Shown here: positions 43,212 through 58,623 of the stretch, in pieces | How the letters are laid out: the number at the start of each line of letters is the position of its first letter | Numbering within the stretch: the first letter of the stretch is position 1 | DNA from: Rhodococcus triatomae BKS 15-14 | Lineage (GTDB): Bacteria > Actinomycetota > Actinomycetes > Mycobacteriales > Mycobacteriaceae | DNA: 64,000 bases | NCBI GenBank assembly: GCA_000341795.1 | Contig: AODO01000018.1 | Span: 1 to 64,000 of the forward strand | Direction: 5' to 3' | Position numbers and translations under genes: made by a program | The notes under the pieces: generated by a model | Database searches by the model: none | The model's input: only the letters and a program-made list of their open reading frames with translations | What the model was told of the DNA's origin: nothing

Positions 43212-43436
43212 GTCGGTATGGCCGAATCGCCCGATTTCTCCGGAATTACTTGATACGCAACCTGATTCCGAGAATCGACGCACACTTGCATGCTCCCTAC
43301 ACGTGTTAGCCTCGCGTTGCACTCGGCGGTGGAAACTGTGTCGGCGGAGGCGGATCGCTGTGGCATGGACCATGATTCGCGGCCAGACCCCTGCCGGGTG
43401 AACCCACTCTTCTGCGTAGTTCATCGGAGGTATCTC

Positions 43437-45152
43437 GTGAAGGTCTGTGTCGTCGGGGCAGGACCCTGCGGGCTGACAACCGTCAAGCAACTCCTCGACG
43501 AGGGGCACGACGTCGTCTGCTACGACAAGAACGCCGACGTCGGCGGCATCTGGCTGCGCGACGAGGACGACGCCGGGAAGATGAAGGCGTACGACAATCT
43601 TCACCTCACGATCTCCATGAAGCTGATGGCGTACTCGGATCACCCGTTCGCAGGCGATCGAGTGTTCTACACCCGGAAGCAGTACTTCGACTACCTGCGG
43701 GAGTACTCCGATCGCTTCCGTCTGCGGGAGAGCATCCGGTTCGACTCCGAGGTGACGAACATCGAGCGGCGGTCGAACTCGTGGACGGTGACGGTTCGCG
43801 GTGGCGGTGTCGAGTTCGTCGAGGAGTTCGATGCCGTCGCGGTGTGTTCGGGGCCGTTCAAGACCCCGAACCGGAACATTCGCGAGCTCGACGGATTCAC
43901 GGGGGAGGTCGTGCACTCCTCGGAGTACCGGAACAACGAGCGTTTCCGTGGCAAGCGTGTCCTGGTCGTCGGGCTGGCCGAATCCGGAGCGGACATCGTC
44001 CGTGAGATCGGTGACGTCGCCGCGGCGTGCACCCTGTCGATCCGGTCGTACAACTACATTCTGCCGCGAATCCTGAACGGCACCAGGACAACCGACCACG
44101 GGACGGTCCGTTCGCACCACCACGAGATGCTCCGTCGGGCAACGGATCAAGCGTTCCCGTTCGAGACCTTCTGGGGCCGCAGTCGCGTGGCGAAGGCATT
44201 GTTCCTGGCCGTGTCCGTGGTGCTCGGCGTGGTCACGACGGCACTCGGCGCGCTCCGCGTCCTCCGGGACAGGTTGATTCCGTCGTTGCGTCCCGCCGGG
44301 CCCGCGGTGGGCCCGATGGGCGAGCCCGTCGATCCGCCGAAGCTGGACATCGGGACGGTACACAACGACGCGAACTGGGAGTTCATCAGGAACTGGAACC
44401 GCAGGTCGCACCCAGAGGGCAGCTGGACGCAGAAGACCATCTTCTGCAAGAACGCCAGCTTCGTTCCGAGCATCGTGGAGGGTCGGGTGCTGCTGAACGA
44501 CGCAGGAATCGAGAAGGCGGAGGGTGCGCTCGTGACCTTCAAGGACGCGGTCGCCGCCGAGTTCGACACCGTCGTGCTCTGCACGGGCTTCAGCGCCGAC
44601 GAGCTGTCCATCGGGGATCTTCAGGTCAACGAGGGCAACGTCCGCAACCTGTACCGCCACTTCCTCCATCCGGAACACGACGGAACCGCGGCCTTCATCG
44701 GGTTCGTCCGCCCCTTCTCCGGCGGAATTCCGATCGTCGCCGAGATGCAGGCCCGGTACTTCGCCAGGGTGCTCAGTGGCGCCCTCACTCCGCCCCGGAA
44801 CATCGACGAGATCATCGGCCGGGAGAAGGAGTGGGAGGAGCACTTCACGGAGCTGAGCCCCCGGCACACCGAGTCGATCCCGTCTCAGGTCATCTATCTG
44901 GACGCGCTCGCACGTGAGATCGGCTGCCTCGTTCCGATGCGGAAGATGATGCTCGATCCGAAGCTGTTCATCCAACTGTGGTTCGGCAGCTTCAACCAGG
45001 CGAGCTACCGCATCGTCGGCCCGCACAACAGGGGCAGCGCCGCGCTGGACGATCTGTACTCAGAACTCGTCGACAATCGCAGGGAGATGGCGCTCCGGAT
45101 GTCACTGCTGCAGCTGATGCCGTCGTCCGTCCACCCGAAGCACATGATGTAG
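43437..45152 (+). CDS. Flavin-containing monooxygenase (class B) with an internal hydrophobic segment
   Basis: A 571-aa FAD/NADPH monooxygenase. The FAD site is VVGAGPCGLT at residue 5, the FMO signature is FTGEVVHSSEY, the NADPH site is VVGLAESGADIV, and there is a late ATG-type LCTGFSAD. FMOs add oxygen to soft N or S atoms or make esters. Usual length is about 450; the extra length includes a 23-residue hydrophobic run near 253-275, possibly a membrane anchor. GTG 43437 follows CGGAGG. It is not an IucD/SidA ornithine hydroxylase by motif. TTAGCCT at about 43306 in its promoter region is only half an iron box. Confidence 0.88.
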   Translation: MKVCVVGAGPCGLTTVKQLLDEGHDVVCYDKNADVGGIWLRDEDDAGKMKAYDNLHLTISMKLMAYSDHPFAGDRVFYTRKQYFDYLREYSDRFRLRESIRFDSEVTNIERRSNSWTVTVRGGGVEFVEEFDAVAVCSGPFKTPNRNIRELDGFTGEVVHSSEYRNNERFRGKRVLVVGLAESGADIVREIGDVAAACTLSIRSYNYILPRILNGTRTTDHGTVRSHHHEMLRRATDQAFPFETFWGRSRVAKALFLAVSVVLGVVTTALGALRVLRDRLIPSLRPAGPAVGPMGEPVDPPKLDIGTVHNDANWEFIRNWNRRSHPEGSWTQKTIFCKNASFVPSIVEGRVLLNDAGIEKAEGALVTFKDAVAAEFDTVVLCTGFSADELSIGDLQVNEGNVRNLYRHFLHPEHDGTAAFIGFVRPFSGGIPIVAEMQARYFARVLSGALTPPRNIDEIIGREKEWEEHFTELSPRHTESIPSQVIYLDALAREIGCLVPMRKMMLDPKLFIQLWFGSFNQASYRIVGPHNRGSAALDDLYSELVDNRREMALRMSLLQLMPSSVHPKHMM

Positions 45153-45157
45153 CGCCG

Positions 45158-45565
45158 TCAGGTTCCGACCGTCAGGGTGTCGCCGGCCACGGTGACGGGG
45201 CGCGGTGCGAGGGGCTCCTGAGCCGGGCCGACGAGAGCGGCGCCGTCCTCGATCGCGAACTGGCTGCCGTGGCACCGGCAGACGATCCGGCCTTGGTTGA
45301 CGGCGGACACCAGGCAGTTCTGGTGTGTGCACACCGCGGAGAAGGCGTGGAAGACACCAGGTTCCGGTTGCGTCACCACCACCCGGCCGGGCCGCAGGAC
45401 GACCCCGCCGCCGACGGGGACGTCTGCAGCGGGTAGCTCGACGGGGCCCGACGGCTCGGGCTCGGATTCGCCACCGCCTGCGCACCCGGTGACGGCCAGG
45501 CAGCCGACCGCGCACGCCCCGCCGACGAACGCGCGGCGGGACATCGTGACATCCGCTGGGTTCAT
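45158..45565 (-). CDS. Tat-exported Rieske [2Fe-2S] lipoprotein
   Basis: A 135-aa protein with a twin-arginine signal (SRRAFVGGA) followed by a lipobox (AVTGC) at about residue 28. The Rieske domain has CTHQNC and CRCHGSQF, the two Cys-His pairs that bind a [2Fe-2S] cluster. It should be an electron carrier anchored outside the membrane. It converges on the flavin monooxygenase with only 5 bp between stops. Function is unknown; such small Rieske lipoproteins are common in actinobacteria. Confidence 0.9.
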   Translation of the reverse strand: MNPADVTMSRRAFVGGACAVGCLAVTGCAGGGESEPEPSGPVELPAADVPVGGGVVLRPGRVVVTQPEPGVFHAFSAVCTHQNCLVSAVNQGRIVCRCHGSQFAIEDGAALVGPAQEPLAPRPVTVAGDTLTVGT

Positions 45566-45753: not shown

Positions 45754-47046
45754 CTACTCGACGGAGACGGACTCCGGGGCCACGTCGGTTGCCGTCTCGG
45801 ATGGGCGCGCCATCTCGGAGACCGCTCGGCGAAGCGGCAGCGCGACGATGATCAGCGCGACGACCTGTGCAGTGAGAGACCCCCACGCGACACCGATCAG
45901 GCCGACCTCCGGCACCAGGGTCGTCGTCACGCCGAGGGTGGTCCCGACGATGACGATCTGGACCGCGAGCATCAGCCGCAGTCGTCGGAGGACCTGGGCG
46001 ACCAGGAAGTACACGATGACGACGGTCCCGACGACGGACTCCACCGCCATCACCAGCACCAGCCCCGCGGCTGCGTGGAAGTAGTCGGGGCTCACCACGT
46101 ACAGCACCACCGGTCCGCCGACGGCGAGACCCGTCGCGGAGACGGCGGCGACCGCACCGAGCATGCGGATCAGCCGGTGGAACAGCGCCGCGCGGTCCGC
46201 GTGCGGGGCGGATGCCTCCACGATGAAAGAGGATCCCACTCCGGACCTCAGCAGCCCGACGGCGGAGCACATCGTCCAGGCGAGGTTGAAGTAGGCGTTC
46301 TGCTCGGTGCCCAACTGGGACACCACGATCAACGGCAACACCAGGGGCGTCACCGTGACCACCAGCGTCATCGTGAAGTACACGCCCTGGAACGCCCAGA
46401 GCTCCCGCGTGGGCGGCAACTGCGGCTCGAGGTCCCGGCGCGCACGTGCGACCCGCAGCAGGTAGAACACGGCGGCTGCGCTGACACCGAGTGCGAGGAC
46501 CGCCCACGAACCGCTCAGCGCGAGAGCGGATCCGGTACCCGCCAGCGCGACGACCGGCACGATCTTGAGGACCGACAACGCGATGTTCTTGACGGCCACC
46601 GCCTTCGCCAGCCTCAGGCCCGTCAGGATCGGGTCGGTCAGCGCGTACACCGCGAAGGTGAGCACGATCAACGGGAACAGGGTCTTCTCGGCCGGCGATG
46701 CGAACAACCGGTCGTTCGACGGGTTGACCAGGAGGAAGAGCGATCCGAGGAGCAGTGCGACGGTCGAGGTCAACGCGAGGCCGCCGATGACCAGGCGGCC
46801 GGACGAACGACCGGCCACGGGCAGGAAGCGCTGGTACGCGCCACCGAGCGACAGGCACGACACCGACGCGAGCATCGTCGCGGTGCTGATCACCGCGGAC
46901 GCCCGGCCGACCTCCGCGGTGTCGAAGAAGCGTTCCGCGACGGCCCAGTAGACCAACCCCAGCGCGCCGGTCGCGACCGACGACGCCATCAGCGCCGCGG
47001 CATTCGATTCGAGCCCCGGCGCCGTGAGACGTTTCGGCAGACGCAT
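45754..47046 (-). CDS. Wzx/MATE-like lipopolysaccharide or glycolipid flippase 1
   Basis: A 430-aa polytopic protein with about 12-14 hydrophobic segments, of the polysaccharide-flippase (Wzx/RfbX) type. ASAVISTATMLASVSCLSLGG near residue 48 is shared with the second flippase at 56130, so the two are paralogues. It should move a lipid-linked glycan or glycoconjugate across the membrane. Its ATG overlaps the GT14 stop (TGATG) and it is the last gene of the iron-boxed operon starting at 53763. No regulator or anchor gene follows. Confidence 0.85.
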   Translation of the reverse strand: MRLPKRLTAPGLESNAAALMASSVATGALGLVYWAVAERFFDTAEVGRASAVISTATMLASVSCLSLGGAYQRFLPVAGRSSGRLVIGGLALTSTVALLLGSLFLLVNPSNDRLFASPAEKTLFPLIVLTFAVYALTDPILTGLRLAKAVAVKNIALSVLKIVPVVALAGTGSALALSGSWAVLALGVSAAAVFYLLRVARARRDLEPQLPPTRELWAFQGVYFTMTLVVTVTPLVLPLIVVSQLGTEQNAYFNLAWTMCSAVGLLRSGVGSSFIVEASAPHADRAALFHRLIRMLGAVAAVSATGLAVGGPVVLYVVSPDYFHAAAGLVLVMAVESVVGTVVIVYFLVAQVLRRLRLMLAVQIVIVGTTLGVTTTLVPEVGLIGVAWGSLTAQVVALIIVALPLRRAVSEMARPSETATDVAPESVSVE

Positions 47047-47936
47047 CACGGTGTCACCGCCCGACCGGCGCGGAAGGCCTCGATCAGTGGCCACGCCGAC
47101 TCGTCCACCTTCCGCGCGAACATCGCCGGTGAACGGCGCAGGTCCCCCTCGTCGTCGAGGGTGAAGGTGCGCGGGTTGATCGCCGTGCGGTCGGACCAGT
47201 CGATGTGGTGCATGCCGTGCACCGGGCGAGCGAGATAGCTCGGCAGGTCGCGCTCGCGATCGACGTGCTGGGCGATGCGGTCGGCCAGCGGCGACGCCGC
47301 CAGGATCGACGTGAAGACCACCTCGTCGGCGGCGAGGGTCTGGCGGTGGAATCTCAGCCAGCGCGGGTGCGCAGCGAGGAATCCGGTGACCTCCTCGATC
47401 GCGGTCGAGGTCAGCGACCACCACATCGAGCCCTGCACGAGAGGGATCGTGTCGTCGACGCGCCGGGGCAGCCGCCCCGACAGGCGGGCCCACCCCGGGC
47501 CGGAACGGTCCGCGAAGTGGCGGCGCGCGACGACGTGGCCGCGCAGCGCACCCGGCCCGGTGAGCCGGTGGTCCACGCGCAGGAACTCGGTGTCCGTCGA
47601 CCACGCCGCGAGCACGTCGTCGAGCGGCGCGATGAGCAGGTCGGAACCCGAGAGCAACGTGAACCGCACGTGACGGTGACCCGAATCCCGTGCTGCGGCA
47701 ATCAGATCCAGCGTCGCCTCGACGATGCTGAGACCACCCCAGGAGACCGTGCGCCGCTCGCGCAGGTACGTCAGTCCGTCCCGCTCCGGGGCGGCCGCGA
47801 GGAACGGGGCGAGGTCGGACTTCGCGTCCACGTGGACGTACACGTCGATCGACGGATGGTCCAGGGACTCGAGCAGTGCACCGAGCACTCGCGGCTGGTG
47901 ATGTGCGAGGACCAGCACCGCGAACCGGGCACTCAC
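47046..47936 (-). CDS. GT14 (core-2/I-branching type) glycosyltransferase
   Basis: A 296-aa protein resembling beta-1,6-N-acetylglucosaminyl or xylosyl transferases of family GT14: FAVLVLAHHQP, VYVHVDAKSD, TVSWGGLSIVEATLDL, LLSGSDLLIAP and the late TLAADEVVF acidic block. The GTG at 47936 overlaps the stop of the A-T-TE gene by four bases, so both are co-translated, as is the flippase behind it. This coupling is the main reason to suspect that the aryl acid ends up on, or is exported with, a sugar. Confidence 0.85.
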   Translation of the reverse strand: MSARFAVLVLAHHQPRVLGALLESLDHPSIDVYVHVDAKSDLAPFLAAAPERDGLTYLRERRTVSWGGLSIVEATLDLIAAARDSGHRHVRFTLLSGSDLLIAPLDDVLAAWSTDTEFLRVDHRLTGPGALRGHVVARRHFADRSGPGWARLSGRLPRRVDDTIPLVQGSMWWSLTSTAIEEVTGFLAAHPRWLRFHRQTLAADEVVFTSILAASPLADRIAQHVDRERDLPSYLARPVHGMHHIDWSDRTAINPRTFTLDDEGDLRRSPAMFARKVDESAWPLIEAFRAGRAVTP

Positions 47937-50554
47937 AGGCTCCGCTCCAGCGCGGCCCGCACCAGTGCCGCGGTCCGCGCCACGTGCGGTGCGCGCAGCA
48001 TGCCGACATGGTCACCCGGCACCCGGTCGACGGACACCACGTTCGGAGCGATGATCGGCCACCACGACGGCTCGTCGGGATTGTCCTCGGCCATCACCAC
48101 CGCGACCCGGCCCTCCCACGGCCGGAGCTTGTGCAGCAGCGCCACCCGTCGGCCCACCTCGTGGAACAGGTCCCACTGCTTCTCCGCGGAACGGGGCACG
48201 ATCCCCGCCGTCAGGAGCTGGAACCGGGTGCGCCACAACTCGCCACGTCCGGGTGCGGGCGCGTCGACCGCGGGCGGTGTGTGCTCGGTCCGGGGCAGTT
48301 CCGGGCCGCCGACCGACAACGGACCGCCGAGAAGCGTGTCGAGGCACACCACGATCCGGATCTGCTCGCCGTCGGATTCGAGCAGCCGGGCGGCCTCCAT
48401 CGCGATGACCCCGCCGAGCGAGTGCCCGACGAAGCTGTACGGCCCGTTCGGTTGGACGGCGCGGATCTCCTTGACGAAGCGACGCGCGGCTGCGGCGACC
48501 GTCCAGTCCGGGATGCCCCGGCCCTCCAGTGCGTGCGCCTGCAGTCCGTGGACGGGACGGGTCAGTTCTCGTGCCAGCGGCAGGAGTGCGAGTGCCGTCG
48601 ATCCCGCTCCGGCGAACGCGAACACGGGTTCACCGACACCGTCCGGTCGCAACGGGACGAGCACCGAGGTGGACGCGGCCACGCCGGACCTCGTGGTGTC
48701 GAGATGGGCGGCGAACTGCCGGAGCGTGGGGTGGCCGGCCAGGGTCGCCGACGACAGTTCGACGTTGAATCGCTTCTCGACGCGGGTCAGCATCTGCTGT
48801 GTCTGCAGCGAGTCCCCGCCGAGGGCGACGAAATCGTCGTCGCGGCCGATCTTCTCGACCCCCAGGATCTCCGCCCACAGGCCCGCGACGGTCGCCTCGG
48901 TGCCCTCCTCGGGGGCGACGACCGGCGGGCGGGGAGAGGGATCGGGCAGCGCCCGGCGGTCCACCTTGCCTCGTTCGGTGCGTGGCAGTGCCGGCATCAG
49001 AACGAGGTGGGTGGGAACCATCCAGTCGGGCACCAGGTTCCGCAGTTCACGACGGAGATCGGCGGCGGACGGCGCGCGGTCGCCCGGGGTGACGGCCACG
49101 TACCCGGTGAGCACCCCGGATCCGGCCTCGGGGCGCGCGACGACGACGGCGTCCTCGACCGCGGGAAGCCGGCGCAGCGCCGACTCCACCTCGGACGGTT
49201 CGACGAGATAGCCACGGACCTTGACGGCGTCGTCGCCGCGCCCCACCAGGTGCAGGATGCCGCTGTCGTCGAACCGGCCCAGGTCGCCCATCCGGAAGTA
49301 GCGGGCACCGCGTGGGGTCACGCCGAATCGGTCGTCGTCGGACGCCGCCGCCGGGCCGCTGACGAAGTAGCCCTCGGCGAGGTAGTCGGACTCGACGACG
49401 ATCTCGCCGACCTCGCCCGGCCCGACCAGCCGTCCGTCGGGGCCGAGCAGGCGGACCGTCTTGTTGGCGGCGACCGTCCCGACCGGGAGGACACCGTTCG
49501 GGACGGGACGTCCGGGCGGGAACATGTTGAACGCGAGGTTGCCGGTCTCCGACGACCCGGACAGGTTGCAGTAGCTGCCGTTCGGGCCGAGCTGGGCGCG
49601 CAGTCGGGTCACGTCCTCGCCGTGCACGGCCTCGCCGCACGTGGTGACCAGTCGGAGCCGCCACAGTGCCGGCGTACCCTCGCATGCCCGCAGCACCGCG
49701 CGCAGCAGCGACGGGGTGGCGTGCAGCGTGGTCAGGCCCTCGCTCGCGATCCACCGCGGCACGGCGTCGATCCCCATTTCGCGCGGGTCGAGGACGTGCA
49801 GGGTGGCGCCGTTGAGCAGGGCGGTCATCACGACGTCGAGGCCACCGCCGAAGCTGATCGGCAGCGCCATCCCCACCCGGTCGGACGCGGAGGTGCCGAT
49901 CGTGAGGTGAAAGTCCGCGGCCTGGTTCAGCCACAGGCGCTGGCCCTGCCGGACGGCCTTCGGCTTGCCCGTGGAGCCCGAGGTGAACAACAGCACGGCG
50001 GTGTCCGTCGGGGTGCCCGACCGCAGCGGGGCGTCGGGCGCGGCGGGCAGCGCGGCCAGCTCGGCCGGGCGGTAGCGGACCGCGTTGCTGCGGCTGAGGA
50101 TGTCGGCGCGGCGCTGTTCCGGCAGCTGCGAGTCGAGCAGCACCAGCGGGTATCCCGAGACCAGCACCGTCACGATCGCGACGACGCAGTCCAGAGTGCA
50201 TTCGGTGTCGATCGCGATCGGACGCCGGACACCCGCGAGGGAGGCGACGAGCGACCGCGCACCGGCGACGGCCCGTTCGTTCAGCTCCGCATATGTGATG
50301 TGCTCACCACGGCACACGACCGCGGTCTGCTCGGGCAGGTGGTCCACGACGACGTCGAACCGTTCGCGGATCGAGAGCCACGGCACGGGAAAGGGTGCGT
50401 GGCCACGAGGTTCGACGGGGGAGGTGGCAGCCGCACGTCGGCCGATCGCCGGCATCAGGACGGTGTCCTCGGACGGCGGGGGCACCGGGGTCTGCGGGAT
50501 CGCACGCGACGGCGGCGCCGCCGCGGTCCGCGGGGTAACTGGTCGATCGGGCAC
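47933..50554 (-). CDS. NRPS-like A-T-TE enzyme with a non-amino-acid adenylation pocket
   Basis: An 873-aa enzyme. After a Pro/Ala-rich N-terminus of about 50 residues comes an adenylation domain (LFTSGSTGKPKAV; FGGGLD at 235-240; SGSSETGN; YFRMGDLGRFD; RGKVDRRAL). A carrier domain follows (LGGDSL, Ser582), then a thioesterase (GHSLGG, Ser712; CLDTLL; PGDHVGML). It has no condensation domain. The pocket reads G-G-D-H-T-C-L-N-L-K: the Asp that holds an alpha-amino group is Gly, so the substrate is probably not an alpha-amino acid. Neighbouring genes point to an aminohydroxybenzoate. A-T-TE enzymes elsewhere dimerise or release aryl acids. GTG 50554 follows GTGAGG; the longer upstream frame is an overlap artefact. 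Confidence 0.9.
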   Translation of the reverse strand: MPDRPVTPRTAAAPPSRAIPQTPVPPPSEDTVLMPAIGRRAAATSPVEPRGHAPFPVPWLSIRERFDVVVDHLPEQTAVVCRGEHITYAELNERAVAGARSLVASLAGVRRPIAIDTECTLDCVVAIVTVLVSGYPLVLLDSQLPEQRRADILSRSNAVRYRPAELAALPAAPDAPLRSGTPTDTAVLLFTSGSTGKPKAVRQGQRLWLNQAADFHLTIGTSASDRVGMALPISFGGGLDVVMTALLNGATLHVLDPREMGIDAVPRWIASEGLTTLHATPSLLRAVLRACEGTPALWRLRLVTTCGEAVHGEDVTRLRAQLGPNGSYCNLSGSSETGNLAFNMFPPGRPVPNGVLPVGTVAANKTVRLLGPDGRLVGPGEVGEIVVESDYLAEGYFVSGPAAASDDDRFGVTPRGARYFRMGDLGRFDDSGILHLVGRGDDAVKVRGYLVEPSEVESALRRLPAVEDAVVVARPEAGSGVLTGYVAVTPGDRAPSAADLRRELRNLVPDWMVPTHLVLMPALPRTERGKVDRRALPDPSPRPPVVAPEEGTEATVAGLWAEILGVEKIGRDDDFVALGGDSLQTQQMLTRVEKRFNVELSSATLAGHPTLRQFAAHLDTTRSGVAASTSVLVPLRPDGVGEPVFAFAGAGSTALALLPLARELTRPVHGLQAHALEGRGIPDWTVAAAARRFVKEIRAVQPNGPYSFVGHSLGGVIAMEAARLLESDGEQIRIVVCLDTLLGGPLSVGGPELPRTEHTPPAVDAPAPGRGELWRTRFQLLTAGIVPRSAEKQWDLFHEVGRRVALLHKLRPWEGRVAVVMAEDNPDEPSWWPIIAPNVVSVDRVPGDHVGMLRAPHVARTAALVRAALERSL

Positions 50555-50568
50555 TGCAACCTCACACG

Positions 50569-51693
50569 TCAGGTATCGGCGGCGACACCGAGACGCGGGA
50601 ACAGCAGATCCGCGACGATTCTCGCCTCGTCGATCAGCGGCCACCCCGACAGGATCCAGATGTCGATACCGAGATTCTCGCTCATGCCCAGGATGCGGTC
50701 CGCAACCTGGTCCGCGCTGCCCACCAGATAGTTCCCGGTGCCCTTGCCCGCCACGTCGAACGGCGGCTCCGCGCCGGTCCACGTGGTCAGCCCCGCGGCC
50801 ATGTTCGGTGCGTACTCGAGTTCCGCGCGGGTCGGCAGCCGGCCCGCGCGCAGGGCCTCGATCCGCGCCTGCACCTGGGGGTCGTCCGACGTCAGCTCGT
50901 CGAGCGGAGGGAAGCCGAAGCTGGTGAGGTTGCGGTCCGCGGTCGCCAGCACCGACGCCGGGTCGGTCTGTGCCAGCTGCCATTCGAAGCGTTCCCAGGC
51001 CTCGTTCTCGGTCTCGCGGACGACAACGCTCGCGAGCACACCGAACCGCAGTTCGCGACCGGCATCGGCGGCGGCCTTGCGGACCCTGGTGAACACCGCG
51101 TCCATCGCCGGTTCGGGGCTCATGAACATCAGGTACGCGTCGAGCACTGCCGCGGCGTGCGCGATGCCCTCGGGGGAGGCGCCCGTACCCCAGATCGGGA
51201 CGCCGCCGGGCTGACGCGGCCCCGCGATCGCGGGTTTGTACCGGGGGCCGTACTCGAAGTGGGTGCCCTGGTACGCGTCGGTGTCGTCGAGGTACAGCTT
51301 CTTGAACAGCGACCAGTACTCCTCCGAGACCGCGTATCGCTCGGCCTTGGAGTGGAACCGCCCGTACCTCGCCAGTACCGCGTCGGCGCCGTTGACCTGG
51401 TTGTAGATCAGCCGACCGCCGGAGTACTGGTCGAAGACCTGAGCCTCCTCGGCGAGGAGAACCGGCGGCTTGACACCCGGATACTCCGGCACCACGAACT
51501 TCAGCCGCTCGGTGTCCGCGACGAGCGAGATCGCCTCGCGGGCCGTGGTGAGCGCGCCGTAGTAGCCCAGAGAGTCCAGCGTCCGGGCCTGATCGCGCAG
51601 GGCACCGAACGACGGTTCGAGGCGATGCCGCGGATCCCACGGCGCCTCGCCGTCGTTCGCCCCGATGTACCAGAGAATCTCGGGTGTCGTCAC
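50569..51693 (-). CDS. Luciferase-like (LLM) flavin-dependent monooxygenase
   Basis: A 374-aa TIM-barrel protein of the bacterial luciferase/alkanesulfonate monooxygenase (SsuD) group: LRDQARTLDSLGYYGALT, FVVPEYPGVKPP, DQYSGGRLIYNQVNG, ERYAVSEEYWSLFKKL, GVPIWGTGASPEG and NYLVGSADQVADRI. Such enzymes use reduced FMN and oxygen. GTG 51693 lies 10 bp after the DHQ synthase stop, and the A-T-TE gene begins 14 bp downstream, so it is in the operon. It may oxidise the aminohydroxybenzoate (ring or amine), but an SsuD-like sulfonate role cannot be excluded. Confidence 0.88.
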   Translation of the reverse strand: MTTPEILWYIGANDGEAPWDPRHRLEPSFGALRDQARTLDSLGYYGALTTAREAISLVADTERLKFVVPEYPGVKPPVLLAEEAQVFDQYSGGRLIYNQVNGADAVLARYGRFHSKAERYAVSEEYWSLFKKLYLDDTDAYQGTHFEYGPRYKPAIAGPRQPGGVPIWGTGASPEGIAHAAAVLDAYLMFMSPEPAMDAVFTRVRKAAADAGRELRFGVLASVVVRETENEAWERFEWQLAQTDPASVLATADRNLTSFGFPPLDELTSDDPQVQARIEALRAGRLPTRAELEYAPNMAAGLTTWTGAEPPFDVAGKGTGNYLVGSADQVADRILGMSENLGIDIWILSGWPLIDEARIVADLLFPRLGVAADT

Positions 51694-51703
51694 GATCGTC
51701 CGG

Positions 51704-52888
51704 TCAGCGCTCGTCGCAGAACTCGGTGATCGGCAGGCCGACGTGCCGCGCCTCGGTGGGGACGTACCCGAGGAGCGTGTCACCGGGCCGCAGTTCGGTG
51801 ACGTTGTTCACCGAGCCACCGGGGCCGAGCAGCCGCACGTGCCAGTCGTCCTGCGCGATGACGTTGACGTTCTTGCCGTTCGGGGCGACCGCGGTGATCG
51901 AGATCAGCGGACGCTTCTCGATCTTGACGCGGCCGATGCGGACCTCCCGGACGCTGCCGTCGGTGCGGACCGCGAGGATCGGGAAGCCCGCCTGCAGCTC
52001 GCTGACGTAGCGGGTGCGGTTGTCCGGGCCGAGCACGTAGGAGTGGACCGCGCCCGCGTTCCAGCGGAACGGCCGCGTCGGCATGTACGGGAGCGGGTGG
52101 GTCTCGCTGCAGGACAGGAACATCCCCGTGGAGAACGAGCCGATGAGGCAGCCCTCGTCGAGTTCGAGCAGCGAGCAGGTGTCGATGCAGGCGCGGTCGC
52201 CCATGCCGATGTGCTCGACCTTGGTGACGACGAGCTCCGAGAGCTCCATGCCCTCCAGCTTGTGGTCGACGATCCGGGCCAGCTTCACCACGTCGTCCGC
52301 GCTGCGCGGCGCGAGAAGCAGTCCGTCGGAGCCGTGCTCGAGAACGAGCTTGACGATCTCGGCGTCCTCGACGTCGGTGACGGTGGTGACGGTTCGGCCG
52401 CCCGAGTTCTCGGCGGCCGCGATGACGATCTCCAGCGGAATCTTGGTGGGGTCGGTGAAGGTCAGCAGCGTCCACGGGACCTCGCGGACGACCTCGCACG
52501 CCTCCTGCAGCGTCGGGGCGTCGGACACCACGACGTGCACACCGCGATCCGGGGTGTGGCCGATGTGCTTGGAGTGCACGTCGGCGCGGTCGGAGACGAT
52601 CACCAGGTCGACGGCGTCGTACGGGAAGTCCTCTGCGACCGGGGAGTCGACGGCGAGGATGCGGCGGACGGTCGGCGGCAGGCCCTCGAAGGTCGCGACG
52701 TCGTCGGACAGGATGCCGTCGATGCGGTGGTGCAGGGCCGCCTGCACGACGGCGGGCAGCAGGTCCTCGTTCACGGCGCGCACGTCGAGCCACGCGAAGT
52801 GGCCCTCACGGCTGACGGGGGTACGACGGGAGTCGGCGCCCGCGCCTGCAGTGGGGACGATCTGATCGGTGACGATGGTGCTGTCCAT
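51704..52888 (-). CDS. 3-dehydroquinate synthase II family (GriH-like, aminohydroxybenzoate synthesis)
   Basis: A 394-aa protein of the archaeal-type DHQ synthase II family, recognisable by LLTFTDPTKIPLEIVIA, DGLLLAPRSADDVVKL, ACIDTCSLLELDEGCLIGS, FRWNAGAVHSYVLGPDN and a late RVKIEKRPLISI. In Streptomyces, GriH of this family converts the GriI product to 3-amino-4-hydroxybenzoate. Actinobacteria have ordinary aroB for aromatic amino acids, so a copy beside a GriI-like aldolase points to secondary metabolism. ATG 52888. The aldolase gene lies 47 bp upstream in the same operon. Confidence 0.92.
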   Translation of the reverse strand: MDSTIVTDQIVPTAGAGADSRRTPVSREGHFAWLDVRAVNEDLLPAVVQAALHHRIDGILSDDVATFEGLPPTVRRILAVDSPVAEDFPYDAVDLVIVSDRADVHSKHIGHTPDRGVHVVVSDAPTLQEACEVVREVPWTLLTFTDPTKIPLEIVIAAAENSGGRTVTTVTDVEDAEIVKLVLEHGSDGLLLAPRSADDVVKLARIVDHKLEGMELSELVVTKVEHIGMGDRACIDTCSLLELDEGCLIGSFSTGMFLSCSETHPLPYMPTRPFRWNAGAVHSYVLGPDNRTRYVSELQAGFPILAVRTDGSVREVRIGRVKIEKRPLISITAVAPNGKNVNVIAQDDWHVRLLGPGGSVNNVTELRPGDTLLGYVPTEARHVGLPITEFCDER

Positions 52889-52935
52889 GTTCGGACGGGT
52901 TCCCTTCGGGTAGTGAAGCAGGTGGATCGGGTGCC

Positions 52936-53763
52936 TCAGGCGCTTTCGAGCTCGATGGCGGGAGCGGGGGAGTGGACGAGCCGGGCGAGGGCGGACGCCA
53001 CCGCGAACGGATCCCGTGCTTCGAAGACGTTGCGACCGAAGCTCAGTCCGGCGACGCCGGACCCGAGGATCTCGGCGCCGAGCGCGACGGCCCGGTCGTC
53101 ACCCGCGTCGGCGCTCGGCCCACCGGCCACGCAGATCGGGATCGGACAGGACTCGACGACGCGCCGCATCTCGGCCGGATCGCCGCAGTAGTCGAGCTTG
53201 ACGACATCCGCGCCGAGGTCGGTGGCGATGGCGGCGAGATGTGCGAGTTCGCGTGCGTCCGAGGGCAGGTCGGCTCGCAGCGGCCCGCGGGCGTACATCA
53301 TCGCGAGCAGCGGCATGCCGAGCTGCTCGCACTCGCGGGAGACGGCGCCGAAGTCGGCGAGCTGATCGCGCTCGGTGGGAGATCCGATGTTGACGTGGAT
53401 GCTGACGGCGTCCGCGCCGATCCGCAGGGCGTCCTCCACTCCGGTGACCAGCACCTTCGCGTTCGTGTCCATGCTTCGGGTGGTGCCGGCCGACAGGTGG
53501 ACGATCAGCCCCATGCTCGCGAACGCGGCGGGATCGACGTGCCGGGCGCGACCGCGGTGCAGGATCACGGCGTCGGCGCCGGCGTCGGCGAGGGTCCGGA
53601 CGGTGACCTCGGCGTGGTCGGCGTCGCCGAGGGGGCCGACGGTCACCGAGTGGTCCATCGGAACGATGAAGGTGCGGCCGGTGGCGTGGTCCGAGATGCG
53701 GGACAGGCGAAGGCTCTTGCCGCTCGAGACGCGTGCGCGTGTGGTGGTGGGGAAGCTCAACAT
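52936..53763 (-). CDS. Class I aldolase of the ADH synthase/GriI family
   Basis: A 275-aa TIM-barrel aldolase. FIVPMDHSV (Asp37), MMYARG (Tyr157) and VVKLDYCGD (Lys189, Schiff base) match the catalytic Asp, Tyr and Lys of the archaeal 2-amino-3,7-dideoxyheptulosonate synthase family. GriI of this family condenses aspartate semialdehyde with dihydroxyacetone phosphate for 3-amino-4-hydroxybenzoate. ATG 53763 follows GGAG. It is the first gene of the operon running to 45754, with an iron box 58 bp upstream. Reaction is inferred from family and from the adjacent GriH-like gene. Confidence 0.92.
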   Translation of the reverse strand: MLSFPTTTRARVSSGKSLRLSRISDHATGRTFIVPMDHSVTVGPLGDADHAEVTVRTLADAGADAVILHRGRARHVDPAAFASMGLIVHLSAGTTRSMDTNAKVLVTGVEDALRIGADAVSIHVNIGSPTERDQLADFGAVSRECEQLGMPLLAMMYARGPLRADLPSDARELAHLAAIATDLGADVVKLDYCGDPAEMRRVVESCPIPICVAGGPSADAGDDRAVALGAEILGSGVAGLSFGRNVFEARDPFAVASALARLVHSPAPAIELESA

Positions 53764-53820
53764 CGGCCGGACTCCAATCGGAACATCGCGCAGCGGGGAA
53801 CGCGCTGAGACCCCGCGGTA

Positions 53821-53839
53821 TTAGGGTAGGCTACACATA
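53821..53839 (-). promoter_or_regulatory. IdeR/DtxR-type iron box upstream of the aminohydroxybenzoate operon
   Basis: TTAGGGTAGGCTACACATA has a perfect left half-site and TAGGCTA core, about 14 of 19 matches. It lies 58 bp upstream of the aldolase gene and 69 bp past the end of the hydroxylase gene. Confidence 0.82.
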
Positions 53840-53908
53840 GCGATTTGCTGGAGCATAGGCGGAGGGTTGCGATCTGCGCCACACTCCCGGGCCGGTGCTC
53901 CCGGGGAA

Positions 53909-55096
53909 TCACCCCGTGAAGCGCCACGGGGTCGGGAACGGCAGGCCGAGGTAGACCTCGCCGAGGGCGGACTGCTCCGCCTCGGACTCGGCCCACCGTC
54001 CGAGGCGCGCTCGTCGCAGTTGCCAGTCCGTCGGGTCGTCGCTCAGCGCGTGCAGTGTCGTCGTGAGCGTCCACGAGAACTGCTGCGCCTTCCAGATCCG
54101 CGGCAGGCACGTCGCGGAGTAGTTGTCGAGGTGCGACCGGTCTCCCGCGGCGTAGAACGCGCCGAGTGCGAAGGAGAGCGTGCTCGCGTCGGACACCGCG
54201 AGGTTGAGTCCCTTTGCGCCCGTGGGCGGCACGATGTGCGCGGCGTCGCCGAGCAGGAACAGTCGCCCGTGCTGCATCGTCTCGCAGACGTACGAGCGCA
54301 GCGGGGCGAGCGACCGGTCGAAGATCTCGCCGCGCTCGAGTTCCGGTTGGTCGTCGCTCGCGCTCCGCACGGCCAGTTCGTCCCAGATCTGCTCGTCGGA
54401 CCAGTCGTCGAGGTCGGTGTCCACCGGGACCTGGAGGTACTGGCGGGTGATGTTCGGGCCCCGCATGCTGTGCACCGACAGACCGTTCTCGTGCGCGCAG
54501 TACATGCCCTCCGGCGTCGTGGGTGCGGTGCGGGCGAGGATGCCCAGCCACGCCACCGGGTAGGTGCGGGAGTGTTCGCGCAGCAGTTCGCCGGGGATGT
54601 GCGCGCGGCTGACGCCGTGGAAGCCGTCGCATCCCGCGACGAAGTCCGCGGTGATCTCGAGCGGCGTGCCGGCGTGGTCGACCGTCAGCCGGGCGCGATC
54701 GGAGGTGTTCTCGATCGCGGTCACGGTGGCGTCGAAGTGCAACGGCCCGCCGCTGGACAGACGATCCGCGACGAGGTCCTTGACCAGTTCCTGCTGCGCG
54801 TACACGGTGGCGTGTCCGCCGATCAGGCGGTGGAAGTCGAGGTGGTGGGTGGTTCGGTCGAAACGGAGGTAGAAGCCGTTGTGGGACATGCCCTCCCGGT
54901 CGAGGCGATCCGAGACGCCGAGATCGCGCACCAGCGCGACGGTGGGTTGTTCGAGGACTCCGGCCCGGGTGCGGGTCTCGATGTACTCGCGTTCGCGGCT
55001 CTCGAGCACGATCGACGAGATGCCCTGGAGGTGGAGCATGCGGGCGAGCGTCAGGCCCGCCGGACCGGCTCCGATGATTGCTACCTGGGTGTGCAC
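53909..55096 (-). CDS. pobA: 4-hydroxybenzoate 3-monooxygenase-type hydroxylase (PobA-like)
   Basis: A 395-aa class A flavoprotein hydroxylase. It has VAIIGAGPAGLT (FAD), the internal GCDGFHGVSR, and GDAAHIVPPTGAKGLN. Residues Tyr199, Ser210, Arg212, Arg218, Tyr220 and Tyr382 line up with Pseudomonas PobA Tyr201, Ser212, Arg214, Arg220, Tyr222 and Tyr385, which bind and ionise 4-hydroxybenzoate. GTG 55096 gives a PobA-like N-terminus and follows GGAAGCGGG; an upstream GTG at 55132 is less likely. An iron box lies about 50 bp upstream. Candidate substrates are 4-hydroxybenzoate (giving protocatechuate) or 3-amino-4-hydroxybenzoate. Confidence 0.92.
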   Translation of the reverse strand: MHTQVAIIGAGPAGLTLARMLHLQGISSIVLESREREYIETRTRAGVLEQPTVALVRDLGVSDRLDREGMSHNGFYLRFDRTTHHLDFHRLIGGHATVYAQQELVKDLVADRLSSGGPLHFDATVTAIENTSDRARLTVDHAGTPLEITADFVAGCDGFHGVSRAHIPGELLREHSRTYPVAWLGILARTAPTTPEGMYCAHENGLSVHSMRGPNITRQYLQVPVDTDLDDWSDEQIWDELAVRSASDDQPELERGEIFDRSLAPLRSYVCETMQHGRLFLLGDAAHIVPPTGAKGLNLAVSDASTLSFALGAFYAAGDRSHLDNYSATCLPRIWKAQQFSWTLTTTLHALSDDPTDWQLRRARLGRWAESEAEQSALGEVYLGLPFPTPWRFTG

Positions 55097-55148
55097 GAAC
55101 GTCCCGCTTCCTGGTGGTGTGACAGTCCTCACAGAGGCACCCTCGCGC

Positions 55149-55167
55149 TTTGCTTAGGCTTGCCTAC
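55149..55167. promoter_or_regulatory. IdeR/DtxR-type iron box between the hydroxylase and the GT/flippase pair
   Basis: TTTGCTTAGGCTTGCCTAC matches the consensus at about 14 of 19 positions. It is 52 bp upstream of the hydroxylase (minus strand) and 117 bp upstream of the glycosyltransferase (plus strand), so it may control both directions. Control of the hydroxylase is the safer call. Confidence 0.82.
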
Positions 55168-55284: not shown

Positions 55285-56133
55285 GTGAGCACCTCTACAC
55301 CGACCGACGGGCCGGGCGCCCCCTCAGCTCCGACCGTTGTTCCCCCCGTCGACGACAACGCGGGCCGCGGCGGCCGACCCACCGTGTCCGTCATCATCCC
55401 CGCCATGAACGAGGCGAAGAACCTCCCGTTCGTCGCCTCCCGAATGCCCGACGGCATCGACGAGATCGTGTTCGTCGACGGCAATTCCGTGGACGACACC
55501 GTGGCCGTGGCGCGATCGCTGTGGCCGGCGGCCACCTTCGTCACCCAGACCCGCGGCGGCAAGGGTAACGCCCTGGCCTGCGGATTCGCCGCAGCCACCT
55601 GCGACATCATCGTCATGATCGACGCCGACGGCTCGACCGACCCCGCCGAGATCCCGCTGTTCGTCGAGGCCCTGGTCGGCGGAGCCGACCTCGCCAAGGG
55701 CAGCCGATTCGTCGGCCGCGGCGGCAGTTCCGACATCACCGCCCTGCGCAACCTCGGCAACAAGGGCCTCAACGGACTGGTGAACCTGGTCTTCCGGACC
55801 GAGTTCTCCGACCTCTGCTACGGCTACAACGCCTTCTGGCGCAAGCACGTTCCGCTGATCGAACTTCCCCCGGTCGAGTACCAGCGCGCCCAGTGGGGCG
55901 ACGGCTTCGAGATCGAGACCGTCATCAACGTCCGCCTCGCCACCAGCGGCCTCAACATCGTCGAGGTCGGCAGCTTCGAGGGGCCGCGCCTGCACGGGCG
56001 CAGCAACCTCAACGCCTACAGCGACGGTATGCGCGTCCTGCGCACCATCGGGCAGGAGTGGAACCACTGGCGTGCCACCAAGGACATCCGCAAGGCGTCG
56101 GCGCGCGCCGACGTGCGTGAACTGACCCAGTGA
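55285..56133 (+). CDS. Family 2 glycosyltransferase (polyprenyl-phosphate type)
   Basis: A 282-aa GT2 enzyme. A low-complexity Pro/Thr-rich N-terminus (about 30 residues) precedes SVIIPAMNEAKNL, EIVFVDGNSVDDT, RGGKGNALACGF and VMIDADGSTDP (DxD), the pattern of dolichol/polyprenyl-phosphate sugar transferases. LCYGYNAFW and FEIETVINVR follow. The start is GTG 55285. The stop overlaps the flippase start (GTGA), so the two are translated together. Acceptor and donor are unknown. Confidence 0.88.
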   Translation: MSTSTPTDGPGAPSAPTVVPPVDDNAGRGGRPTVSVIIPAMNEAKNLPFVASRMPDGIDEIVFVDGNSVDDTVAVARSLWPAATFVTQTRGGKGNALACGFAAATCDIIVMIDADGSTDPAEIPLFVEALVGGADLAKGSRFVGRGGSSDITALRNLGNKGLNGLVNLVFRTEFSDLCYGYNAFWRKHVPLIELPPVEYQRAQWGDGFEIETVINVRLATSGLNIVEVGSFEGPRLHGRSNLNAYSDGMRVLRTIGQEWNHWRATKDIRKASARADVRELTQ

Positions 56134-57509
56134 CCACCGGAGCCGCCCCCGCACCGGCCGACGGGGCCGCAGGCGGGAGCGGCTCCGTCGTCGACGGTGC
56201 AGACGATGACGCCGGCGGCGGTGCGGGCCCGGCGCCGGATTCCGGTGTCCCGGCGAAGAGCCTCGAACGAAACAGTCTGGCGCTCACCGTCTCCGCTGCA
56301 CTGACCGGCATTCTCGGTCTCGGCTACTGGGCGCTGCTGGGTCGCCACTATCCCGCCCGCGAGGTGGGCGCCGCGTCTGCGGTGATCACGACCGCCACCA
56401 TGCTCTCCGCGTTCGGCAACATCAGCCTCGGAGCGCTGTTCGAGCGGTTCCTCCCGCTTGCCGGCGTCCGCGGATCGGTCCTGGTGCGTTCCGGCTTCCT
56501 CGTCGGCGGCTGCGGCGGCGTGCTCCTCGGCGCGCTGTTCCTGCTGTGGGGGCCGACCGACGAGATGTTCGACAGCCCCCTCGAGGCCGTCTCGTTCCCA
56601 CTGATCGTGCTCGTCTTCTCCGCGTTCGCGCTCCTCGACCACACGTCGGTCGGGTTGCGCGAAGCCGGGTGGGCGGCGACCAAGAACGTCACACACGCCG
56701 TCGTCAAACTCGTCGCCGCGGTCGCGCTCGCCTTCACCGCGTCGAGGCTCGCGATCATCTGGACCTGGACCGTCCCCGCGGCGATCGCCGCCGTCGTACT
56801 CGGTGTCGCGGTCACGCGGCGGCTGCGCCGTCCGGCGATCTCGCACGCCGCGTCCCAGCTGCCGAGCACCCGGGAGATGGGGTCGTTCCTCGCCGGCTCC
56901 TACGGCATCTACGTCGTGGGATCGCTTGCACCGCTGATGCTCCCGCTCATCGTTGTCGCCAAGATGGGCGCGGACCACAACGCGTACTTCTCCATCGCCT
57001 GGTCCCTGGTGTCCGCCGTCCTGGTGCTGATGACCGTCCTGATGGGACCGTACGTTGCCGGGGTGGCCGCGGATCCGCTCCAGGTGCGAGAGCTGACGCG
57101 CCGGTTCCTCGTCGTCCTCGCGGTGGTCACCGCGGCGGGCGTGGTGCTCTTCGCCGTCGTGGCTCCCGCCCTGCTGACGATCGTCGGCGAGGACTACGCG
57201 GAAACCGGAACCCCGCTGTTGCAGCTGGCGGCGATCGCGCTGATACCTGCCATCGTGGGATTCGCCTACAACGCTGTGGCCCGGGTCCGGCGACGGCTGC
57301 GGCTGGCGATCGCGGTGCAGATCGTCAATGCCGCCCTCGTCCTGGGTCTGAGCCTTCTTCTCGTCGACGATCACGGTCTGGCCGCGATGGGCTGGGCGTA
57401 CGTCGTCGCGGAATCGGTGTCGGCGGTGCTGCTGATCGTGCCACTGGTCAGGGCAGTTCGGGCGCTCGGCCGCGAACCTCTGGAAGCTCAGCCGTCCTCG
57501 GTCATCTGA
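56130..57509 (+). CDS. Wzx/MATE-like flippase 2
   Basis: A 459-aa polytopic protein with an acidic, Gly/Ala-rich cytoplasmic N-terminus (about 45 residues) and about 12-14 transmembrane segments. ASAVITTATMLSAFGNISLG and LPLIVVAKMGADHNAYFSIAW closely parallel flippase 1 (45754-47046), so these are paralogues in one locus. It overlaps the glycosyltransferase in front by four bases, and its 3' end overlaps the convergent GH16 gene by 22 bp. Its role is probably to flip a lipid-linked glycan. Confidence 0.85.
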   Translation: MTTGAAPAPADGAAGGSGSVVDGADDDAGGGAGPAPDSGVPAKSLERNSLALTVSAALTGILGLGYWALLGRHYPAREVGAASAVITTATMLSAFGNISLGALFERFLPLAGVRGSVLVRSGFLVGGCGGVLLGALFLLWGPTDEMFDSPLEAVSFPLIVLVFSAFALLDHTSVGLREAGWAATKNVTHAVVKLVAAVALAFTASRLAIIWTWTVPAAIAAVVLGVAVTRRLRRPAISHAASQLPSTREMGSFLAGSYGIYVVGSLAPLMLPLIVVAKMGADHNAYFSIAWSLVSAVLVLMTVLMGPYVAGVAADPLQVRELTRRFLVVLAVVTAAGVVLFAVVAPALLTIVGEDYAETGTPLLQLAAIALIPAIVGFAYNAVARVRRRLRLAIAVQIVNAALVLGLSLLLVDDHGLAAMGWAYVVAESVSAVLLIVPLVRAVRALGREPLEAQPSSVI

Positions 57510-58426
57510 ACGGCACCCGGGGTCGGGGCAGTCGCGTCCGGTTGTGACCGCTCGGGGGAGTACACCGCCACCCAGTCGATCTGGACCCCGACGCTGTCCG
57601 GCTGTAGCGGGCTCGCGTCGGAACACGGCGCCATGCCCCAGTCGGCACGACGCTCACACGCGCCGGCCTCGGCCTGCAGACCGAGCCACATCGGTTCGTC
57701 GGGAATCATGGCGTCGGAACGGACCTCGGCCCACACGGCTCCGTCCAGAAGGTAGCGGATGATCCCCGGTCCCCACTCGACGCCGACCGTGTGCCAGTCG
57801 GAGAAGTCGCCGCGGACGGTCGCCTGCGCCTTCTTGTTCTCACCGTTCGAGTCGACCCAGTGCACCCAGGCGTCCATCTGCGAGCGCTCCCCGCTCACCG
57901 ATTCGGCGAAATCGATCTCCGGCGGCCAGTTCTCGCTCTTGGGCCACAGCAGCATGTGATACGAGATGTCGTCGCTGCGGTCGGCGCGCATGCGGATCTC
58001 CCAGCGCCCGTACTGCTGGGTGACGGGGTAGTTGGACACGCCGCCGGTGACCCATTCGCCGGCCGAGCGTTCGGCTTTCAGGGTCAGCGCACCGCCGGAG
58101 ACCTCGACCATCGACCGGTCCCAGTGGCTGTTCGGGTTTCCGCCCGGCTGTCCGCTGTAGGGACCCCAATCGGACCCGAGATCGCAGCGGTCGAAATCGT
58201 CGGTGAAGATCTGCTTCCAGCCGGACAGGTCGCCGGTGGGAACCGGCACGCCACCGGGAACCTGACGTTCACCACAGAGTTCGGGATCGGCGGTGGCGCC
58301 TGCGCGGCCGGTCGGATTGTTCGTCGGAATGGTGCAGGCGGCACAGGCCGCGACAGCGAGCGCCGCCGCCGCAGCACGCAACGGCCGAGCGGTCGTCCCG
58401 GCGGCGCGGGTCGAGCGAGGGCTCAT
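57488..58426 (-). CDS. Secreted GH16-family glycoside hydrolase lipoprotein
   Basis: A 312-aa protein with a signal sequence and lipobox (AVAAC within the first 30 residues) and a GH16 jelly-roll domain. The catalytic block WPPEIDFAES fits ExDxxE, and the flanking GRWEIRMRAD and DWHTVGVEWGPG are family hallmarks. GH16 enzymes cleave or transglycosylate beta-1,3/1,4-glucans and galactans. Here it may trim or anchor the exported glycan. ATG 58426 (about 19 codons inside the open frame) overlaps the stop of the small membrane gene. It is the last gene of the right-hand operon. Confidence 0.87.
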   Translation of the reverse strand: MSPRSTRAAGTTARPLRAAAAALAVAACAACTIPTNNPTGRAGATADPELCGERQVPGGVPVPTGDLSGWKQIFTDDFDRCDLGSDWGPYSGQPGGNPNSHWDRSMVEVSGGALTLKAERSAGEWVTGGVSNYPVTQQYGRWEIRMRADRSDDISYHMLLWPKSENWPPEIDFAESVSGERSQMDAWVHWVDSNGENKKAQATVRGDFSDWHTVGVEWGPGIIRYLLDGAVWAEVRSDAMIPDEPMWLGLQAEAGACERRADWGMAPCSDASPLQPDSVGVQIDWVAVYSPERSQPDATAPTPGAVQMTEDG

Positions 58427-58623
58427 GCCGCCGCGAGAGCGATAAGGCGCACGAAGGTCATCGCAGCCGCCGTCACCACACACACGGCGAGTGCCACCGA
58501 GACGACCTGTGCATACGGCCTCCGGCCGATGCCGCCGGTGGCGGGCACGTCGCGCTCGCGCAGCGCCACGCTCACCAGCAGCAGGATCGCGGACAGGACG
58601 AAGAACAGCACGGTCAGGTTCAT
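58423..58623 (-). CDS. Small two-helix membrane protein
   Basis: A 66-aa protein with two hydrophobic helices (about 3-20 and 40-62) separated by a charged loop. ATG 58623 overlaps the stop of the polytopic protein and its stop overlaps the GH16 start, so all are coupled. I do not recognise a family. It may be an accessory subunit of the polytopic protein. Confidence 0.7.
   Translation of the reverse strand: MNLTVLFFVLSAILLLVSVALRERDVPATGGIGRRPYAQVVSVALAVCVVTAAAMTFVRLIALAAA

Follow-up and report, generated by a model that had tools for sequence, protein, structure and literature searches.

Pathways to 3-amino-4-hydroxybenzoate (3,4-AHBA) are best known from the antibiotics and pigments of Streptomyces. 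In the grixazone (GriI/GriH) and bagremycin/ferroverdin (BagB/BagC, FevI/FevH) systems a gene for a DhnA-type aldolase and one for a type II 3-dehydroquinate synthase (DHQS) are adjacent. The same pair is found in Rhodococcus triatomae BKS 15-14, in the first 64 kb (64,000 nucleotides, hereafter the window) of a 210-kb contig (AODO01000018.1) of the 5.8-Mb genome (GCA_000341795.1). There it belongs to a run of seven minus-strand open reading frames (ORFs, 55132-45754) that also encodes a PHBH-type hydroxylase, a luciferase-like monooxygenase (LLM), a stand-alone enzyme of adenylation (A), carrier (T) and thioesterase (TE) domains, a GT14-like glycosyltransferase and a flippase, with further glycan genes alongside. 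The gene content, its co-occurrence across genomes, the conserved iron boxes and the intact active-site motifs were all observed. As a whole they suggest, with a probability that we put at about 45%, that an iron-regulated aminohydroxybenzoate or aminocatechol is loaded by the A-T-TE enzyme and joined to an exported glycan or glycolipid.

Compared with the Gri, Bag and Fev systems, the locus differs both in its DHQS and in the company that it keeps. Among the best 80 of 329 DHQS relatives, 19 are at least 67% identical and all come from Rhodococcus, Gordonia or Mycobacterium/Mycolicibacterium, the closest named one being that of Rhodococcus sp. RD6.2 (97%), whereas the other 61, mostly from Streptomyces and Pseudonocardiales, are at most 56% identical. 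No LLM, flippase, GT2, GT14 or GH16 match was found in the stretches read around these 61 genes, and an arylamine N-acetyltransferase (NAT) was seen in 6/61. One locus titled Rhodococcus rhodnii NRRL B-16535 (L123) carries a DHQS of the Streptomyces-like group (54%), and its label may be wrong. As for regulation, the available portions of the ferroverdin literature state that iron is required for the nitroso ligand and describe ferroverdins as a response to iron overload, which is the opposite of siderophore-type repression.

The aminodihydroxybenzoate (ADHBA) unit of platensimycin is attributed, in the parts of the sources at hand, to an aldolase, a DHQS, a hydroxylase and a NAT (PtmB1-PtmB3, PtmC; PMC6006322, PMC11213898). 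As with PtmB1-PtmB2-PtmB3/PtmC in those parts, an aldolase, a DHQS and a ring hydroxylase occur together here, with a NAT in some loci. The hydroxylase here, however, is of the PHBH subfamily, and its flavin monooxygenase (FMO) relatives in the 61 other aminohydroxybenzoate loci are distant (25-27%, in 3/61), the PtmB3 sequence lying outside this comparison. The roles of the individual PtmB proteins are in part our assumption. In closoxazole biosynthesis (ClxA-E/PfxA-C) 3,4-AHBA is activated by an adenylating enzyme (PMC12118335); the consulted portions of that paper describe free-standing AMP ligases and an amidohydrolase, and no carrier, thioesterase, glycan gene or iron box was seen there. 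Siderophore non-ribosomal peptide synthetases (NRPSs) of the EntF/MxcG type align with the A-T-TE enzyme over their A and T domains, EntF also over part of the TE domain, but the A-T-TE enzyme stands alone, with neither a condensation domain nor an amino-acid pocket. Mycobactin is a lipidic product of NRPS and polyketide synthases and is not known to have anything glycan-like about it. In the excerpts seen it is an iron-regulated, envelope-held chelator (PMC5550956), and thus a likeness only if our inference about the product is right. A coupling of 3,4-AHBA with a carrier-thioesterase enzyme, lipid-linked glycan genes and iron boxes was not found in the portions of the literature compared. 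Furthermore, among the matches listed in a search that covered open-access papers and few subscription ones, no such cluster is reported from Rhodococcus, Gordonia or Mycobacterium.

Gene content and active sites

The seven ORFs were confirmed in place from the ORF list and by family matches in profile searches. An earlier reading made from the DNA letters alone (the sequence-only reading) had named a GriI-like aldolase and a GriH-like DHQS, and both assignments are borne out. The DhnA/GriI-type aldolase (52936-53763, minus strand) matches PF01791 (2.4e-43) and PRK07226 (287 bits, above cut-off), and aligns with MJ0400 over nearly its full length with Asp, Tyr and Lys, which we take to be the catalytic residues, in place. 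The GriH/BagC-type DHQS (51704-52888, minus strand; clade alignment A1), the presumptive 3,4-AHBA synthase, matches PF01959 (2.3e-102) and scores 489.5 bits with the general DHQS II subfamily model, 426 bits with BagC/FevH and at most 240.5 bits with the DHQS II equivalog models. An ordinary AroB is encoded elsewhere in the genome (PF01761 at G000:C53, 151 bits), so that the pair would be dispensable for the aromatic amino acids, and the DHQS II as a shikimate enzyme was ruled out. The matches support a pair of the 3,4-AHBA type, and an aminohydroxybenzoate is very probably made.

The first place in the operon, which had been given to the aldolase, is held instead by the PHBH-type FAD monooxygenase (4-hydroxybenzoate 3-monooxygenase subfamily; 53909-55132, minus strand), which has its own promoter with an iron box. 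This protein matches PF01494 (2.2e-79) and PRK08243 (508 bits, above cut-off). Its motifs binding carboxylate and phenol, presumably Tyr201, Ser212, Arg214, Tyr222 and Tyr385 in the numbering and roles that we assume for PHBH, are kept in 23/23 sequences, and the next best match in its own genome is 26% identical, a 43-residue piece at 49% aside. The enzyme was rejected as a catabolic PobA because it scores 429.5 bits with the PobA equivalog TIGR02360 (cut-off 538.7) and because separate PobA-like paralogues (40-48%) occur in 9/15 genomes searched. If the presumed substrate carries its amine at C3, attack next to the phenol would place the new hydroxyl on C5 and yield an aminocatechol.

A flavin monooxygenase had also been placed between the DHQS and the A-T-TE enzyme. 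It is there, as the LLM (50569-51693, minus strand; PF00296, 6.2e-33), but the operon holds two flavin enzymes, and the LLM is unrelated to PHBH. It is nearest to the alkanesulfonate monooxygenase SsuD, yet it scores 171.7 bits against a cut-off of 518.2, and on alignment to SsuD the two sulfonate-site residues, which we take to be Arg226 and His228, are replaced by Leu and Ser. Its substrate would hence differ from that of SsuD, and a function as alkanesulfonate monooxygenase was rejected on account of this replacement.

The A-T-TE enzyme (~47933-50554, minus strand, start read from sequence) shows by Pfam only A, T and TE domains (PF00501, PF13193, PF00550, PF00975), the condensation domain being absent. 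Its core motifs are present and its pocket code is GGDHVTLNLK, with Gly at the position of the Asp (Asp235) of amino-acid-activating domains; the non-amino-acid pocket claimed at first was thus upheld. Neither a condensation domain nor an amino-acid pocket, the two marks of an NRPS siderophore synthetase, is present. The gene overlaps that of the GT14-like (Core-2/I-branching, 'Branch') transferase (47046-47936, minus strand) at GTGA, and the latter overlaps the flippase gene (45754-47049, minus strand, ATG start at ~47047) at TGATG, as the sequence-only reading had noted of the three genes. The GT14 assignment stands on a PF02485 match which is weak yet over the cut-off (1.9e-8; 34.6 vs 23.4 bits), and the protein is 41-81% identical to six relatives. 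The Wzx-like flippase, assigned to the MOP superfamily, scores below the cut-off of its family model (PF01943, Polysacc_synt; 25.6 vs 28.2 bits).

Divergent from the PHBH gene, a GT2 enzyme resembling AglJ and polyprenyl-phosphate-sugar synthases (55285-56133, plus strand; PF00535, 4.7e-21; TIGR04182 AglJ 108.5 bits, below the cut-off of 325) is followed by a second MOP-like flippase (56130-57509, plus strand), which has no Pfam match and 18.8 bits with NF007773, far under the cut-off, and was recognised through synteny. Further on, all on the minus strand, are a GH16 glycosidase/transglycosylase (57488-58483; PF00722, 4.6e-13), a large protein read from its sequence as a candidate GT-C membrane transferase (58620-60932; syntenic, no Pfam or NCBIfam match) and a double GT2 glycosyltransferase (60857-62854; PF00535, 3.9e-37; AglG-like, 225 bits against a cut-off of 440).

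Iron boxes and co-occurrence across genomes

The loci compared number 28, namely the window, 22 from family genomes and 5 further named ones, some of them cut by contig ends. Copies were excluded from the counts (L048-L050, L053, L055, L057-L062, L064-L066; copy status checked in six pairs by a shared 200-base stretch), and L067 was left out of the final box test, which brought 29 loci to 28. Genus names of the G-numbered genomes are inferred, and 'Rhodococcus-type' is our own label.

The sequence-only reading had described one iron box; a box is indeed present, but there are two in the operon. Box 1 (55149-55167), a conserved one, sits in the PHBH-GT2 intergenic interval and is common to the PHBH gene and the divergent GT2-flippase unit (55285-57509), while box 2 (53821-53839) lies 5' of the aldolase gene; each matches 14/19 positions of the 19-bp consensus that we take from the IdeR/DtxR literature. 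A third box (62893-62911, 13/19) lies 5' of the double GT2 gene. With at least 13/19 matches within 300 bp upstream of a gene as the threshold, boxes were found 5' of 20/23 PHBH, 23/28 aldolase and 21/22 GT2 genes; the figures are 1/28 for DHQS, 1/17 for LLM, 0/22 for A-T-TE and 0/22 for each flippase query. The first three classes together give 64/73, and 300 permuted palindromes gave a mean of 1.7 and a maximum of 36, the motif scoring 36 being one that shares the outer bases of the real motif. Since the PHBH and GT2 genes are divergent and share one box in most loci, the 73 upstream regions are not independent. As background, a score of 13 is reached by 3.9% of 4000 random 315-bp segments drawn from these loci with the real sites left in. 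The double GT2 gene has a box upstream in 9/10 usable loci (13 were given, 3 of them without a usable match), and relocated LLM genes have one in 5/7. IdeR/DtxR-type iron control of both the aryl and the glycan units is, as far as sequence can tell, well supported in loci with a DHQS of this clade (DHQS+), and the pathway is almost certainly iron-regulated.

The DHQS clade is present in 2/6 genomes of the genus, the strain's own included, and in 23/401 genomes drawn from the family. Aldolase and DHQS genes occur in 28/28 loci and are adjacent in 27, being apart in L047. PHBH is found in 23 loci, LLM in 17, A-T-TE in 21 (plus a weak match of 32% in L047), a flippase or its paralogue in 22, GT2 in 22 and GH16 in 11, and a NAT (PF00797), absent from the window, in 8. 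The order aldolase-DHQS-LLM-A-T-TE-GT14-flippase, whose conservation the sequence-only reading had proposed as a check, is kept in 5/28 loci, window included; the other loci differ, five of them by lacking the LLM only. A chance neighbourhood was ruled out, gene order and boxes being conserved. In one genome (L043, G290) two DHQS II copies lie ~7 kb apart. In Gordonia, several of these modules (L185, L186, L187, L188, L197) are flanked by phosphate-transport genes on one side and by a mycothiol-synthase-like gene on the other (labels from translations), as if this interval were an insertion hot spot.

Genome-wide searches extend this picture, as each of the 23 DHQS+ family genomes has the LLM (16 at the locus, 7 elsewhere) and an A-T-TE-type protein (18 at the locus, 4 elsewhere in G091, G161, G219 and G304, 1 beside it in G263), and 22 of them have the PHBH orthologue (19 at the locus, 3 elsewhere), the contig of G347 being cut. 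A GT2 of at least 62% identity is present in 22/23. The relocated PHBH orthologues (66-68%) are those of G329, G343 and G281, and the relocated LLM orthologues (66-71%) those of G099, G290, G329, G343, G281, G242 and G391; in G329, G343 and G281 a second locus holds acyltransferase-like, PHBH, NAT, LLM and phosphatase genes with an iron box ahead of the LLM. In four congeners without this DHQS (DHQS-negative; G001, G002, G004, G005), genome searches gave no PHBH, LLM or A-T-TE orthologue. Their best matches are none or 47% (G005) for PHBH, 35-36% for LLM and 49% for GT2, and their best A-T-TE matches lie inside open frames of at least 8,800 residues.

The A-T-TE tree, for which L047 and the mis-extracted L180 were left out or re-extracted, has three subclades. 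Subclade I lies in glycan loci, and all its 13 sequences come from DHQS+ genomes. Subclade II unites Gordonia and Mycobacterium sequences from both DHQS+ and DHQS-negative genomes, and those of known position are in or near glycan loci (that of G231 being 70 kb off). Subclade III comprises Gordonia enzymes, and in each of three stretches that were read (L176, L177, L181) the gene adjoins NRPS genes with iron boxes; a divergent branch made up of the G084 and G244 enzymes is sister to this subclade. Within subclade II the pocket code opens with GA in 10/10 DHQS+ sequences and with GG, AA or AG in 8/8 DHQS-negative ones, which suggests that the pocket may follow the aryl acid. In a control in which L198/L209 and L197/L216, being the same genes, were counted once, 3/94 equally conserved dipeptides separate the two groups equally well, and the GA pair is therefore weakened as evidence.

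Neighbouring siderophore genes and flanking features

To the left of the aryl-glycan genes lies a separate siderophore cluster of the 2,3-dihydroxybenzoate (DHB) type (7510-39996), with iron boxes at 11919, 14625, 25283 and other positions. It contains a DHB-AMP-ligase-like gene (673 bits, below the cut-off of 723.55), an isochorismate synthase gene (TIGR00543, over cut-off), two large multi-module synthetase genes whose NRPS label comes from the sequence, a binding protein and an EntS-like exporter over cut-off. A catecholate NRPS adjoins the aryl-glycan cluster in 5/5 Rhodococcus-type genomes read (the window, G003, G258, G174 and G070; G184 and G052 fell outside the flank reading). Within ~20 kb a catecholate cluster was found in 0/5 Gordonia/Mycobacterium genomes read (G304, G329, G290, G219, G099). 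The linkage to siderophore genes is hence genuine in the Rhodococcus-type group, but the aryl-glycan set does not depend on it.

Between the two clusters, positions 43290-45565 encode an FMO-like monooxygenase and a Rieske-type small protein, and a 73% relative of this FMO lies with an iron box near the aryl cluster of G329 (L139). Exo/endo-phosphatase and GT2 genes (40343-43211, plus strand; PF03372, PF00535) accompany the cluster and are syntenic. At the other end, a gene cut by the end of the window (62946-64000, minus strand; no Pfam or NCBIfam match) was read from its sequence as a candidate condensation/PapA-like acyltransferase. Its HGxGE/D motif is present in 5/8 aligned rows, the five that span that region, and members of this family often stand beside these glycan genes (also L055:4934-6184, a copy without Pfam match). 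Next to mfd-mazG, large Rhodococcus genomes (L192, L196) carry related genes for a GT2, a flippase, an acyltransferase-like protein and other glycan functions, with no iron box of at least 14/19 and no A-T-TE gene at these loci. No Rfam element at gathering score was found in 40-60 kb of the window, and a close plasmid relative was rejected, as megablast against the plasmid collection gave no match to the window.

The possible product and its alternatives

From these genes we infer the following reactions, regiochemistry, acceptor, surface location and iron binding. Under iron control, the aldolase and then the DHQS II would convert aspartate semialdehyde and dihydroxyacetone phosphate into 3,4-AHBA. 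The PHBH-type enzyme would hydroxylate it, most likely at C5 beside the phenol, giving 3-amino-4,5-dihydroxybenzoate, an aminocatechol; the alternative site is C2, as in platensimycin. The LLM may perform a second oxidation, and in some species the NAT would cap the amine. The A-T-TE enzyme would activate the aryl acid onto its carrier domain, and the thioesterase would transfer it to an acceptor, putatively a glycan or glycolipid that the GT2, GT14 and candidate GT-C enzymes build and the MOP flippases export. We give even odds to the aryl unit being joined to a glycan or glycolipid. That the resulting surface aryl-glycan binds iron, alongside the neighbouring catecholate siderophore, is proposed more tentatively, and it is rather unlikely that the locus represents a class of iron-regulated surface saccharides whose aminocatechol units, formed via 3,4-AHBA and loaded by the stand-alone A-T-TE enzyme, trap or relay iron at the envelope by taking it over from the diffusible catecholate siderophore. 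The sequence-only reading is, overall, partly supported, and the comparison across genomes lends strength to its guess of an iron-controlled aryl compound attached to a sugar structure.

Several observations weigh against the proposed iron-regulated aryl-glycan. The curated cut-offs for BagB/FevI and BagC/FevH (NF041223, NF041224) are not reached (257.4 of 500 and 426.1 of 750 bits), and the aldolase scores marginally higher with the archaeal-type model for ADH synthase than with that for BagB/FevI (260.7 vs 257.4 bits, both under cut-off). GT14 occurs in 10/28 loci, the Mycobacterium loci L052 and L054 have only PHBH, aldolase and DHQS among the searched proteins within 10 kb, and G263 lacks a GT2 of the 62% type. 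The sites score 13-16/19 against a box consensus that we assume; the PHBH genes that have moved lack a box of their own (0/3), GT2 genes of DHQS-negative genomes have one in 1/8, and in the DHQS+ Gordonia genomes G219 and G161 the GT2 homologue lies in a stretch without an iron box. The best A-T-TE enzyme of these two genomes, moreover, falls in the subclade that adjoins NRPS genes. Finally, the GT2 at 62% identity or more occurs in 27/378 DHQS-negative genomes, and an A-T-TE enzyme in 11 of the 19 of these 27 in which it was sought, all picked for having the GT2. The glycan/A-T-TE module thus appears independent of this aryl acid, and, as the modules occur apart, the glycan/A-T-TE and aryl modules are separable; the glycan/A-T-TE module may be able to use several such acids, this one among them.

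The presence of the module without aminohydroxybenzoate genes, like the related GT2 loci that stand next to mfd-mazG without boxes in large Rhodococcus genomes, would suit an aryl decoration of a surface saccharide that is structural, antigenic or redox-active (e.g. an aminophenol/phenoxazinone) and does not bind iron, the boxes then reflecting a low-iron lifestyle switch. However, both the aryl and the glycan units are boxed in most DHQS+ loci, and iron is typically bound by aminophenol and catechol units; we hold this reading to be quite improbable. Alternatively, the aryl unit could be glycosylated by GT14 or GT2 and exported by the flippase as a small diffusible siderophore or co-siderophore, with no polymer involved. 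The iron boxes, the catecholate NRPS next door in all Rhodococcus-type genomes read and the third A-T-TE subclade beside iron-boxed NRPS genes in three Gordonia stretches all speak for such a secreted chelator. On the other hand, a double GT2, an AglJ-like GT2, a GH16 enzyme and two flippases suit a lipid-linked saccharide better than a single sugar, and the catecholate cluster is missing within ~20 kb in the Gordonia/Mycobacterium genomes read, so that we regard secretion as unlikely.

The adjacency in those five Rhodococcus-type genomes would equally agree with the aryl unit serving as a second ligand of the neighbouring NRPS siderophore, the glycan genes being a separate neighbour. This is the least probable of the explanations considered, as the NRPS cluster brings along DHB-AMP-ligase-like and isochorismate-synthase genes for itself, the aryl-glycan linkage persists in Gordonia/Mycobacterium loci without that NRPS nearby, and the A-T-TE enzyme has its own thioesterase and no condensation domain.

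What the comparison adds is a distinct 3,4-AHBA clade of Rhodococcus, Gordonia and Mycobacterium that conserved iron boxes and co-occurrence across genomes tie to genes for building and exporting glycans, and this clade supplies a ready enzyme and strain panel for testing. If the aryl-glycan is truly a surface chelator, it would represent a siderophore strategy based on neither diffusible peptides nor lipids, and it would bear on how mycolic-acid bacteria retain iron at their envelope.

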